Below, piece by piece: positions 48,373-51,651 of a DNA stretch of 64,000 nucleotides; the first letter of the stretch is position 1; each line of letters begins with the position of its first letter. A program made the translations under genes and the position numbers. The stretch lies in the NCBI RefSeq assembly GCF_000153825.1, contig NZ_DS022299.1:2535707-2599706 (forward strand), read 5' to 3'. Source of the DNA: Synechococcus sp. RS9916 (lineage in GTDB: Bacteria > Cyanobacteriota > Cyanobacteriia > PCC-6307 > Cyanobiaceae). A model generated the notes under the pieces. It was given only the letters and a program-made list of their open reading frames with translations, had not been told where the DNA came from and did no database searches.

Positions 48373-48762
48373 TCAGCCGAGATACTCCTTCCGCAGCGTT
48401 TGGACGCGGTTCACCAGGGCAGAGCGCTTGTCGCTGGTGGTGAGGTTTTTCCAGCTCCATTGGCCGACAACAACCACACCCAGCAGTTCCAACAAACCGG
48501 GAACAACAGGCAGGAGATTGATGGTGTCGAGGATGCCCTTGATCAGAATCTGGGCAACGATCACCGCAGCAAAAATGCCGACCACTTTGCCCATACGGCC
48601 GACCTGGTTCCAGTCGACCTGGTCGAGGGTGGCGTTCACCTTGCCCAGCACTTCGCTGTAGCGCTCAGTGAAATTGATGGTTTCGCTGGTGCTGCCTGCG
48701 TCGCTCTCAGAGGTGGTCTGCGAGGTTGCAGGATCCTGGACTGCGGTGGTGTCCTCACTCAT
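48373..48762 (-). CDS. CAAD-domain (CURT1-like) membrane protein
   Basis: 129 residues from ATG 48762. A polar N-terminus rich in Thr, Ser, Glu and Asp is followed by an amphipathic helix (ERYSEVLGKVNATLDQVDWN), two hydrophobic helices (VVGIFAAVIVAQILI; VVPGLLELLGVVVVG) and the ending NLTTSDKRSALVNRVQTLRKEYL. This is the CAAD domain, also found appended to cyanobacterial aminoacyl-tRNA synthetases and related to the thylakoid-curvature protein CURT1. Stand-alone role is likely thylakoid membrane shaping or anchoring. Confidence 0.87.
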   Translation of the reverse strand: MSEDTTAVQDPATSQTTSESDAGSTSETINFTERYSEVLGKVNATLDQVDWNQVGRMGKVVGIFAAVIVAQILIKGILDTINLLPVVPGLLELLGVVVVGQWSWKNLTTSDKRSALVNRVQTLRKEYLG

Positions 48763-48782: not shown

Positions 48783-49316
48783 ATGTTGGTTGAGCGTATC
48801 GGTCAACCTGCAGAAACGCCATGGTCGTTGGCGTTCGATCCCGAAGTGCTCATCATTCTGCGCAGCACCCTCCAGGTCGCGTTGCCCGAAGAGGGTTGTG
48901 CACTCTTACTGGGATGCCGGCAGCCTTCGGGGTGGCTGCTCCAGCACATCTGGCCCTGCCGCAATGTCTGGCACCCAGGCATCGCAGCGTTGCCGGAAGC
49001 AGTAGGGGAATGCATGGATGGCACCCCGCCTCCGTCCCGTTGCAATCGGTTCGCCTTGGATCCGCGGGAGCAGCTGTTGGCGCAGCGTTGGGCGCGGCAA
49101 CGCGGCTTCGACGTGATTGGGACTGCCCATTCCCACCCCCAGGGGAATGCGACCCCATCCCGGCGCGATCGGGACTGGTTGCGCTTCCCGTCGTTGATGG
49201 TGATTCAGGGGGCTGACCTGCGGCTGCGGGCCTGGTGGCTCGAACCTGAGACGGCCCTTTGCACGGCCCTGGTGAAAGACACTGACGAAAGTGATCTCCC
49301 ACTGCGCAGTGTCTGA
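48783..49316 (+). CDS. JAMM/Mov34 (M67) metallopeptidase
   Basis: 177 residues. The JAMM zinc motif is exact: His116-Ser-His118-Pro-x6-Ser126-x2-Asp129, with a likely upstream Glu in the LPEEGCALLLG segment near residue 36. Bacterial JAMM proteins beside E1-like genes can trim C-termini of ubiquitin-like sulfur carriers. Its stop overlaps the start of the MoeZ-type gene, so the pair is translationally coupled. Divergent from the CAAD gene with a 20-bp gap. Confidence 0.9.
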   Translation: MLVERIGQPAETPWSLAFDPEVLIILRSTLQVALPEEGCALLLGCRQPSGWLLQHIWPCRNVWHPGIAALPEAVGECMDGTPPPSRCNRFALDPREQLLAQRWARQRGFDVIGTAHSHPQGNATPSRRDRDWLRFPSLMVIQGADLRLRAWWLEPETALCTALVKDTDESDLPLRSV

Positions 49317-50484
49317 TGACCCCGGGTTCCCATCCAACCTCAGTGCTGATCTCAGCGCAGAGGAACGGGCCCGCTACGCCCGGCATCTGACCCTGCCCGA
49401 GGTGGGGCTTGAGGGTCAACGCTGCCTGAAGGGGGCATCCGTGTTGTGTGTGGGCAGTGGTGGCCTGGGATCCCCTCTGCTGCTCTACTTGGCTGCCGCC
49501 GGAGTCGGCCGCCTCGGAATTGTGGATTTCGATGTGGTCGACCACTCGAATCTGCAGCGACAAGTCGTCCATGGCACGGCCACGGTCGGAATGGCCAAAA
49601 CGAGCTCAGCGCGGCATCGGATTGAGGACCTCAACCCCCACTGCCGTGTCGAGGAGCACAACCTGAAGCTCACGGCAGCCAATGCTCTCGAGCTGCTGGC
49701 CTCCTACGACTTGGTCTGTGATGGCACCGATAACTTCCCTAGCCGCTACCTGATTAACGATGCGTGCACCTTGTTGGGCAAACCTTGCATCTATGGCTCT
49801 GTTCAGGGATTTGAGGGGCAGGTGAGCGTGTTCAACCTCACCGCCTCCAGCCCTAACTATCGCGATCTGGTGCCTGAGCCTCCACCGCCAGGTCTGGTGC
49901 CCTCCTGTGCCCAGGGAGGTGTTCTGGGTGTGATGCCGGGTCTGATTGGGATCCTGCAGGCCACGGAAGCCATCAAGGTGATTACTGGAATCGGCAGGCC
50001 ACTCGATGGGCGCTTGCTGCTGGTCGATGGGCTGGCCATGCGTTTTCGCGAGTTGCAACTGCAACCGATCCCTGGCCGGCCTCAGGTCAAGCAACTGATT
50101 GACTACGAAGCGTTCTGCGGCGTGACTGGCGCCGCATCTGAAGAGGTGGCTGCCATGGACAGCATCAACGTGCAGGAGCTCAAACAGCGCCTTGATGGGG
50201 GCGAGGCCCTCGTGCTGCTCGATGTGCGCAATCCGCCTGAAGCGGAGGTGGCGGTGATCCCCGGAGCCGAATTGATTCCCCTGGCCACGATCGAAAGCGG
50301 TGAAGCGGTTGAGCGGATTCGCGACCTCGCTGCGGGCAAGAGTCTTTACGTGCATTGCAAGCTCGGGGGGCGCTCCGCCAAAGCCGTGGCCCTGCTGGCA
50401 GGGCATGGGATCGATGCCATCAACGTGGCCGGGGGGATCGACGCCTGGTCGCAGCAGGTGGATCCCACTGTTCCCCGCTATTAA
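49309..50484 (+). CDS. moeB: MoeZ-type E1-like adenylyltransferase with rhodanese domain
   Basis: 391 residues from the GTG at 49309, 8 bp inside the JAMM gene (a GTG at 49291 is possible). The ThiF/MoeB domain has the ATP-binding GSGGLGSPLLLYLAAAG, DFDVVDHSNLQRQ and the crossover-cysteine region PPPPGLVPSCAQGGVLG. A C-terminal rhodanese domain has the active-site YVHCKLGGRS near residue 349. This architecture activates MoaD- and ThiS-like carriers and transfers sulfur for molybdopterin, thiamine or tRNA thiolation. Which carrier it serves is not clear; none is adjacent. Confidence 0.94.
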   Translation: MSDDPGFPSNLSADLSAEERARYARHLTLPEVGLEGQRCLKGASVLCVGSGGLGSPLLLYLAAAGVGRLGIVDFDVVDHSNLQRQVVHGTATVGMAKTSSARHRIEDLNPHCRVEEHNLKLTAANALELLASYDLVCDGTDNFPSRYLINDACTLLGKPCIYGSVQGFEGQVSVFNLTASSPNYRDLVPEPPPPGLVPSCAQGGVLGVMPGLIGILQATEAIKVITGIGRPLDGRLLLVDGLAMRFRELQLQPIPGRPQVKQLIDYEAFCGVTGAASEEVAAMDSINVQELKQRLDGGEALVLLDVRNPPEAEVAVIPGAELIPLATIESGEAVERIRDLAAGKSLYVHCKLGGRSAKAVALLAGHGIDAINVAGGIDAWSQQVDPTVPRY

Positions 50485-50496
50485 TCGCGAAACGTC

Positions 50497-51651
50497 TCAG
50501 TAATCCACGCCGCGCTTGAGGTCGACCCCTTGCTCGGCGTAATGCTTGTGGCACACCATCTCGGAGTGGACACTGGCGAGATCGAAGTAGGCGGGAGGGT
50601 TCTTGCAGCGGCCGGTGATGATCACTTCGGTCTCGGCCGGTTTACGCAGCAGCGTTTGCATGATCGGCTCCACCGGCAGCAGTTCGAGATCCACGCTCGG
50701 GTTGAGCTCGTCGAGAATGACCGTTTTGTAGAGGCCGCTGGAGATGGCAGCGCGGGCAATTTCCCAGGCCCGTTCCGCTTCCACGTAGTCGATCGGTTCC
50801 TGCTGGCCTCGCCAGACGATGGCGTCGCGGCCGGAACGCAGATGGTCGACCAGGTGGGGGTAGCTCTCCCGTAGGGCCGCGATGGCGGCGTCTTCGGTGT
50901 AGCCGGTGCCGCCTTTGAGCCACTGGAGAATCAGCACACGATGGCTCTTGTCCTGGCTGATACCGCGCCCGATCGCTTGCAACGCCTTGCCAAGAGCGCT
51001 GGTGGATTTGCCCTTGCCTTCTCCGGTGTAGATCTCGATCGCTCCCTGCGCATCGAACCGTTGCGCATCCCCCGGGTCGGGGCGGCGGTGGGCGCGCATT
51101 TCTGAGTGCAGATCCGCCATCTGCACCAGAGGCCGGGGTGCACCCCGGCCAGTGACGATGATTTCCATCCCCTCAGGCCGAGCCTGCAGGCTGCGCACCA
51201 CATCATCGATGTCAAGCAGCCCGAGATCCAGCACGGGATTCAGCTCATCGAGCACCACCACGGAATAGAGGGCACTGGCGATGGCGCCCTTGGCGATGTC
51301 CCAGCCCCGCTGCGCTTCCTGGCGGTCGAAACGGGTGACATCCTCCGCTCCAAAATGCTCACCGCGGCCGGTGCGCACCTGATCGATCAGATGGGGGAAG
51401 CCCTGTTGAAGGGCTTCGATCGCGGCGTCTTCGTCGTAAGCACGACCCGGGCCCTTGAGAAAGCGCAGCAAAAGCACCCGGGTGCGGCGCTGTTCGCAGA
51501 TGCCCAGACCGATGGTGCGCAAGACGACGCCAAGGGCGGCCTGGCTCTTGCCTTTACCCTCGCCGTCATACACGTGCAGTTGCCCGAGACTGCGCTCACG
51601 GCTGTCAGCGGCGGTGACGATGCCGACGGCTGGTCTGCGATTCCCTGCCAT
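50497..51651 (-). CDS. cobO: tandem-domain corrinoid adenosyltransferase
   Basis: 384 residues made of two CobO/BtuR-type domains fused head to tail, each with a P-loop: DGEGKGKSQAALG at about residue 29 and TGEGKGKSTSALG at about residue 207. Each half also repeats the LDELNPxxDLxLL and EVIITGRxxPxxLxxLAxLxSEM blocks. The enzyme adenosylates cob(I)yrinic acid a,c-diamide or cobinamide. Both halves look intact. Single-domain enzymes are about 190 residues, so this is a full duplication. The other corrin gene in the window is the CbiG-CobJ fusion. Confidence 0.92.
   Translation of the reverse strand: MAGNRRPAVGIVTAADSRERSLGQLHVYDGEGKGKSQAALGVVLRTIGLGICEQRRTRVLLLRFLKGPGRAYDEDAAIEALQQGFPHLIDQVRTGRGEHFGAEDVTRFDRQEAQRGWDIAKGAIASALYSVVVLDELNPVLDLGLLDIDDVVRSLQARPEGMEIIVTGRGAPRPLVQMADLHSEMRAHRRPDPGDAQRFDAQGAIEIYTGEGKGKSTSALGKALQAIGRGISQDKSHRVLILQWLKGGTGYTEDAAIAALRESYPHLVDHLRSGRDAIVWRGQQEPIDYVEAERAWEIARAAISSGLYKTVILDELNPSVDLELLPVEPIMQTLLRKPAETEVIITGRCKNPPAYFDLASVHSEMVCHKHYAEQGVDLKRGVDY

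Follow-up and report, generated by a model that had tools for sequence, protein, structure and literature searches.

We propose that the JAMM/MPN+ metallopeptidase encoded in the analysed window (the whole stretch of 64,000 nucleotides) is a ThiS-uncapping protease, and that the MoeZ-type E1 adenylyltransferase-rhodanese protein encoded by the overlapping gene is the enzyme that would thiocarboxylate the uncapped ThiS (and MoaD). Judging from the two genes, the C-termini of the carriers and their distribution among cyanobacteria, we consider it likely that JAMM removes the cap before E1 thiocarboxylates ThiS-GGG. The JAMM and E1 genes are intact (Table 1), ThiS of the same genome is capped while its MoaD is not, and ThiS tails occur in about half of the JAMM-carrying cyanobacterial genomes and in a single genome that lacks JAMM.

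Table 1. Features of the JAMM-E1 gene pair and its divergent neighbour (positions within the window).
Feature	Position	Strand	Basis
CAAD-domain gene, divergent neighbour	48373..48762	-	PF14159 70 bits; synteny
JAMM/MPN+ metallopeptidase gene P0001, 177 aa	48783..49316	+	Prok-JAB, invariant motif, JAMM1-SAMP2 fold match
Catalytic Glu37 codon, JAMM motif	48891..48893	+	sequence, homologue alignment
Zinc motif H116-S117-H118, S126, D129	49128..49169	+	sequence, homologue alignment
MoeZ-type E1 adenylyltransferase-rhodanese gene P0002	49291..50484	+	ThiF 254 bits, rhodanese 48 bits
Overlap of JAMM 3' end and E1 5' end	49291..49316	+	in-frame starts: GTG 49291 = 26 bases; GTG 49309 = 8 bases
E1 nucleotide-binding loop GSGGLG, residues 55-60	49453..49470	+	sequence
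Rhodanese active-site loop CKLGGR, C356	50356..50373	+	sequence

The product of the upstream gene is confirmed as a JAMM/MPN+ metallopeptidase. It matches Pfam Prok-JAB with 58.7 bits (cutoff 25), and residues E37, H116, S117, H118, S126 and D129 of the ExnHSHx7SxxD motif are unchanged in 22/22 aligned cyanobacterial homologues. Both hallmarks of the JAMM/MPN+ family are present, namely the ExnH[S/T]Hx7SxxD zinc motif and, in an AlphaFold model with a mean pLDDT of 80.5, the MPN fold. The best structural match of this model is Pyrococcus JAMM1 with SAMP2 (5lda, E 3.3e-8; TM-score 0.59 on the query and 0.79 on the target), with other JAMM enzymes ranking lower. The sole NCBIfam match at E <= 0.001 was the halophile desampylase (NF041370), to which the protein does not belong, scoring 33.8 bits against a cutoff of 130.

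The downstream gene product, P0002, combines a ThiF domain with a C-terminal rhodanese domain that carries the active-site cysteine, as do MoeZ/MoeZR proteins, and no CxxC motif was found in it, while MoeB/MoeBR have two; the lack of these two motifs is the criterion that sets MoeZ/MoeZR apart (PMC3227635). The nucleotide-binding loop, the rhodanese C356 and the missing CxxC motifs are therefore the grounds on which we call this E1 MoeZ-type. It falls short of the MoeZ equivalog PRK07878 (472.6 bits vs. a cutoff of 647) and is therefore MoeZ-type only, not a member of the equivalog; among the MoeB models, it stays under the cutoff of PRK07411 (564 vs. 633) and exceeds that of the subfamily PRK05690 (288 vs. 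266).

The pairing of JAMM and E1 genes exceeds chance, because 52 of the 60 JAMM loci examined have an E1 motif no more than 400 bases downstream, and in two more a carrier gene separates the two. The earlier note had read this locus as a JAMM protease with an exact zinc motif, whose gene overlaps the start of a MoeZ-type E1-rhodanese gene and has no ubiquitin-like carrier beside it. This description stands: the JAMM open reading frame is intact with all motif residues in place, the genes share 26 or 8 bases, according to which E1 start is used, and a Pfam scan of the neighbouring ORFs detected a fructosamine kinase, the CAAD protein, a corrinoid adenosyltransferase, an ATP-pyrophosphatase-like protein and a PLP decarboxylase, and no carrier among them. 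The absence of an adjacent carrier, which the note had pointed out, is thus real, but it is usual for the cyanobacterial pair, as judged from the 60 loci and from the operon table of Iyer 2006 (PMC1779556). Neither did the scanned neighbours provide the carrier and cysteine synthase genes that would stand beside a JAMM gene of the Mec+/CysO type. The corrinoid adenosyltransferase gene (window 50497-51651) matches its family in two stretches, and it looks like an internal duplication.

The genome containing the window (2.66 Mb, a single contig, of the marine Synechococcus kind) yielded one Prok-JAB protein and two ThiF-fold proteins in whole-genome searches, the JAMM partner being the only MoeZ-type one. 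A whole-genome PF02597 search detected two carriers of the ThiS/MoaD family, ThiS and MoaD. The ThiS C-terminus (...IVTIVGGGS) extends one serine past the glycines, i.e., it is capped, and the thiS gene lies far from the pair, adjoining a ThiD2-ThiE gene; the closest named ThiS among the matches listed belongs to Synechococcus sp. UW140 (79% identity). The MoaD C-terminus (...PPFTGG) is exactly GG. Hence, both companions of an uncapping protease of the QbsD/PtmS1 type were found, a capped carrier in the same genome (ThiS, VGGG-S) and a linked MoeZ-type E1 (the overlapping E1-rhodanese gene). The earlier note had suggested a carrier encoded elsewhere that extends beyond its terminal glycines, ThiS being one of the candidates named; the genome search for tailed beta-grasp carriers that it suggested led to ThiS, and the situation which it regarded as fatal to the idea, in which all carriers already end in GG, does not occur here. 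Its expectation of residues after Gly-Gly was right as to the tail, but the cut is likely to fall after GGG rather than GG. MoaD, also named as a candidate, is not a capped substrate.

Indeed, MoaD-type carriers were untailed in 40/40 cases, i.e., in this genome and in 39/39 fetched matches from others, the latter being all PF02597 matches that are neither ThiS nor the 261-base third carrier, taken as a class and not scanned individually; MoaD was therefore rejected as the capped substrate. The SAMP1-like third carrier was likewise rejected as the substrate in this genome, where PF02597 yields ThiS and MoaD only. The second ThiF-fold protein is unlikely to activate ThiS, since it is divergent and extended at its N-terminus, falls far short of the MoeB/ThiF equivalog cutoffs and is encoded by a gene that overlaps that of a peptidase S66 (LD-carboxypeptidase; L005:1177-3200, G000 contig 1, approximately 1026460-1028483). 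The latter arrangement recalls microcin C-like or other peptide-modification loci.

The earlier note had also suggested a co-occurrence test, which we ran within cyanobacteria and which agreed with the idea of a tailed substrate. Among 239 ThiS C-termini read, 96 of the 190 from JAMM+ genomes were tailed (94 untailed), as against one of the 49 from JAMM-less genomes (48 untailed). Outside the window's family, which by its content we take to be the Cyanobiaceae, tails were found in 10/98 JAMM+ genomes (88 untailed) and in 0/40 JAMM-less genomes, the latter spanning 13 families, and varied ThiS tails occurred in eight JAMM+ genera. Fisher tests on genomes take no account of kinship; with the counts collapsed by genus and JAMM state, the tailed fractions were 36/99 vs. 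1/25 (p = 0.001), and the genus-level table outside the family alone gave 8/67 vs. 0/22 (p = 0.19). A tree-aware pair test on the ThiS tree found three to four independent pairs on well-supported branches and none opposing, too few for significance. Phylogenetically independent tail/JAMM events are thus few. Furthermore, ThiS is untailed in 94 JAMM+ genomes, 88 of which belong to other families, and in these JAMM must do something else.

In these comparisons, JAMM+ was scored by a family match and not by linkage to E1, and in the three Microcystis-coded genomes inspected (G072, G101, G171) no JAMM motif was found upstream of E1. In the class set, a Prok-JAB match of at least 50 bits (our own cut) defined 138/195 genomes as JAMM+, and other types of JAMM give weak matches in some of the 57 JAMM-less ones; in the family set, the eight genomes without any match were scored as JAMM-less, and with G199 and G231, which lie outside the 57, the JAMM-less genomes total 59. 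A strong E1 match is kept in 58 of these 59 (the exception is G070), so E1 is kept without JAMM. Carriers were searched with the PF02597 and TIGR01683 (thiS) profiles. Of 274 genomes, 35 are without a usable ThiS end: in G095 ThiS was dropped as a partial match under the cutoff, no ThiS match was obtained for G135, G164 or G241, 18 matched genomes (eight of them JAMM-less) were left unread and 13 unsearched. As a result, 10/59 JAMM-less genomes are missing from the tail table. Genome G135 (3.8 Mb) is a case of an E1 without a visible carrier: its E1-rhodanese match is clear, PF02597 detected no carrier, and no JAMM match reached 50 bits. No ThiS relative was found in viral contigs by the ThiS search.

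Within the window's family, a ThiS end was read in 101 genomes, of which 45 have no third-carrier (261-base) match among the matches listed (lowest listed E 1.6e-12). In these 45, ThiS was tailed in 37/37 JAMM+ genomes and untailed in 7/8 JAMM-less ones; in approximately 10 genomes with two carriers, the second match is not among the matches listed. The relation was complete in the 26 family genomes with a single PF02597 match, where 21/21 JAMM+ genomes had a tailed ThiS and 5/5 JAMM-less ones an untailed ThiS, and where no MoaD or SAMP1-like carrier was detected for JAMM to serve. Six family genomes are JAMM+ with an untailed ThiS; all six have the third carrier and retain an intact JAMM motif. 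Where the third carrier is present, JAMM thus appears to do a second job that does not depend on a tail, and this is the main limit of a simple ThiS-uncapping model.

Natural losses of JAMM were seen in seven genomes (coded g2), which we take to be Prochlorococcus-like (1.6-1.7 Mb, GC of the E1 loci 0.31-0.33, no JAMM match). The CAAD gene marks the conserved locus: all seven keep it together with E1 in the window's arrangement, with JAMM gone from between them. In G231, JAMM was likewise cleanly lost at this locus, with the CAAD gene and E1 kept. In 7/7 g2 genomes and in G231, ThiS ends at GGG. In G209, from the same genus as G231, JAMM is present and the ThiS tail is already gone, as expected if the loss of the tail precedes that of JAMM. 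The exception is G199, which has a serine tail, no JAMM match and an E1 without the CAAD neighbour; its assembly is 90% complete, and its JAMM gene may be either unassembled or truly absent.

The tails themselves vary in a manner consistent with their removal. In all 239 ThiS read, the profile match ends in GG, and in every tailed one VGGG precedes the tail, while in six JAMM+ untailed genomes of one family ThiS ends in AGG or VGG instead. Tail length in the scored genomes ranges from 1 to 22 residues; of the 97 tails, 72 are one residue long, 80 start with serine and 67 are a lone serine, and six genomes of one genus have six different tails of 3-22 residues. Varied tails after a constant VGGG are as expected if the tails are removed, and they suggest that cleavage falls after GGG and is tolerant of the residues that follow. 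The best 80 named ThiS loci, in which the tail alone was scored, agree with the distribution above: marine Synechococcus have serine tails, as do most of the Prochlorococcus single cells (Prochlorococcus AG-409-A22 has no tail). Longer tails were read in several other cyanobacteria of this set, Trichodesmium and Okeania included. ThiS of Okeania (L534) and Trichodesmium (L543) ends in the tails VEVRS and VEVKS, respectively, and Trichodesmium does not appear in row 4b of the JAB-E1 table of Iyer 2006 (PMC1779556); these tailed ThiS proteins are possible counterexamples. The longest extension seen, of approximately 77 residues past VGGG, belongs to ThiS of Aphanothece hegewaldii (L496).

A cluster of JAMM, a capped carrier and E1 does exist in another group of cyanobacteria. 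In two f13-coded genomes, of a family which we take to be Gloeobacter-type, the gene of a SAMP1-like carrier ending in AGG-D or AGG-SSCA lies between JAMM and E1; in both, ThiS is untailed, and the capped carrier is the one of the operon, which narrowly passes the SAMP1 cutoff (61 vs. 60). The third carrier of other genomes ends exactly in GG in 59/60 loci read, and it adjoins threonine synthase in the three loci inspected (L007, L048, L063), where a SAMP1-like or MoaD-like carrier ending in AGG was observed. In G196, the genome of L063, JAMM and E1 lie within approximately 3 kb on the same strand, an arrangement that suggests a carrier-linked sulfur or conjugation pathway.

Given that E1 enzymes adenylate the terminal glycine of their carrier, a residue beyond this glycine must go first. 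We infer the cleavage, its site after GGG, the order of the steps and a thiamin phenotype as follows. ThiS would be synthesised as a capped proprotein, in which a short tail, a single serine in this genome, follows VGGG; JAMM would hydrolyse the Gly-tail bond and so expose the last glycine. Next, this glycine would be adenylated by the overlapping gene's E1, whose rhodanese domain would supply the sulfur to form the ThiS thiocarboxylate (ThiS-COSH), the presumed provider of the thiazole sulfur of thiamin. As to how such a dependence may have arisen, we tentatively speculate, with somewhat more doubt than conviction, that a carrier-processing JAMM made the loss of the thiS stop codon harmless, so that arbitrary tails piled up and JAMM became locked in for thiamin synthesis in marine Synechococcus and most Prochlorococcus, from which high-light-like Prochlorococcus would have escaped by regaining a bare GGG and deleting JAMM. 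Under such a ratchet, the lone serine may also have been selected as an activity lock on the thiazole sulfur supply.

The uncapping of ThiS has to be weighed against the view that the main role of JAMM is to take carrier adducts apart, as a deconjugase or hydrolase that either resembles a desampylase or releases an amino acid as Mec+ does; it would act chiefly on the SAMP1-like third carrier and trim ThiS as a side activity. The desampylase as the only NCBIfam match, albeit far below its cutoff, JAMM1-SAMP2 as the top structural match, the SAMP1-like operon carrier of the Gloeobacter-type genomes and the third carrier in 6/6 family JAMM+ genomes with an untailed ThiS all speak for such an activity; however, the genome studied here and 44 others of its family have no listed third-carrier match, and it is precisely there that every JAMM+ genome is tailed. 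Since, moreover, the third carrier almost always ends exactly in GG and some JAMM-less genomes, e.g., G231, retain it, we regard this view as rather unlikely.

It is less probable still that the true substrate is another carrier and the ThiS tail a coincidence: very divergent beta-grasp proteins could escape the two profiles used, but the tail and JAMM are concordant in 26/26 family genomes with a single PF02597 match. We give marginally less credit still to the absence of any functional link, in which the tail would be neutral or would be trimmed by housekeeping peptidases, with the tail and JAMM having been lost independently in streamlined lineages. The small number of phylogenetically independent events and the exception of G199 would fit such a coincidence, yet not one of the JAMM-less genomes from the 13 other families is tailed while tails recur in JAMM+ genera outside the window's family, and an untrimmed tail should block E1 loading at the terminal glycine. 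Hence, we favour the uncapping of ThiS by JAMM.

If this is true, many of the abundant phototrophs of the ocean depend for vitamin B1 synthesis on a proteolytic activation step, which E. coli ThiS is not known to need. The Prochlorococcus-like genomes would then represent a natural gene-loss experiment. In row 4b of Table 1 of Iyer 2006, the combination of JAB and E1-rhodanese is given as an uncharacterized cyanobacterial operon, for organisms including Anabaena, Gloeobacter (with a ThiS/MoaD-like gene), Nostoc, Prochlorococcus and Synechococcus (PMC1779556); it is the same gene pair as that of the window, and in the portion of the paper available no substrate is assigned to it. The same paper states that neither the thiamine nor the molybdenum-cofactor pathway contains any JAB proteins (PMC1779556). 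Thus, an operon that was uncharacterized in 2006 gains a proposed substrate and pathway, and a JAMM protease is placed in thiamin synthesis, a pathway said to be without such proteases (PMC1779556). The gene pair itself was already known, and what would be new is capped-carrier processing placed in thiamin synthesis; among the matches listed from the open-access literature, no title on JAMM processing of ThiS was found, a search in which subscription journals lie mostly outside and 'this', as a common word, is a poor filter.

Capped carriers are also used by HcyD/HcyS of Wolinella, which feed homocysteine, and the mycobacterial Mec+ is itself a JAMM protease. Mec+ frees cysteine from a CysO-Cys adduct, whereas the window's pair has no adjacent cysteine synthase gene. 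Mec+/CysO/CysM with MoeZR resemble the window's pair in that a JAMM protease and a MoeZR-type E1 act on one carrier. MoeZR serves several carriers in mycobacteria (PMC3227635). The desampylases HvJAMM1 and PfJAMM1, as well as DRJAMM, which cuts a MoaD-MoaE fusion, cleave after the carrier C-terminus, as proposed here, but their substrates are conjugates or the MoaD-MoaE fusion, in contrast to a ThiS tail of 1-22 residues (PMC8832034). A close likeness is offered by QbsD (quinolobactin/TQB) and by PtmS1 with PtmS2/PtmS3/PtmS4, which, like the window's system, comprise a JAMM protease, a sulfurtransferase E1 and a beta-grasp carrier with one or a few residues past its glycines, the protease exposing the glycine ahead of thiocarboxylation (PMC6006322). 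In that study, knock-out of the JAMM PtmS1 or of the MoeZ-like PtmS4 in Streptomyces abolished thioplatensimycin, and its authors concluded that capped carriers are used (PMC6006322). These carriers feed secondary metabolism and may cluster with their protease (PMC6006322), whereas the window's JAMM would serve a distant ThiS, encoded beside ThiD2-ThiE, with a predicted cut after GGG.
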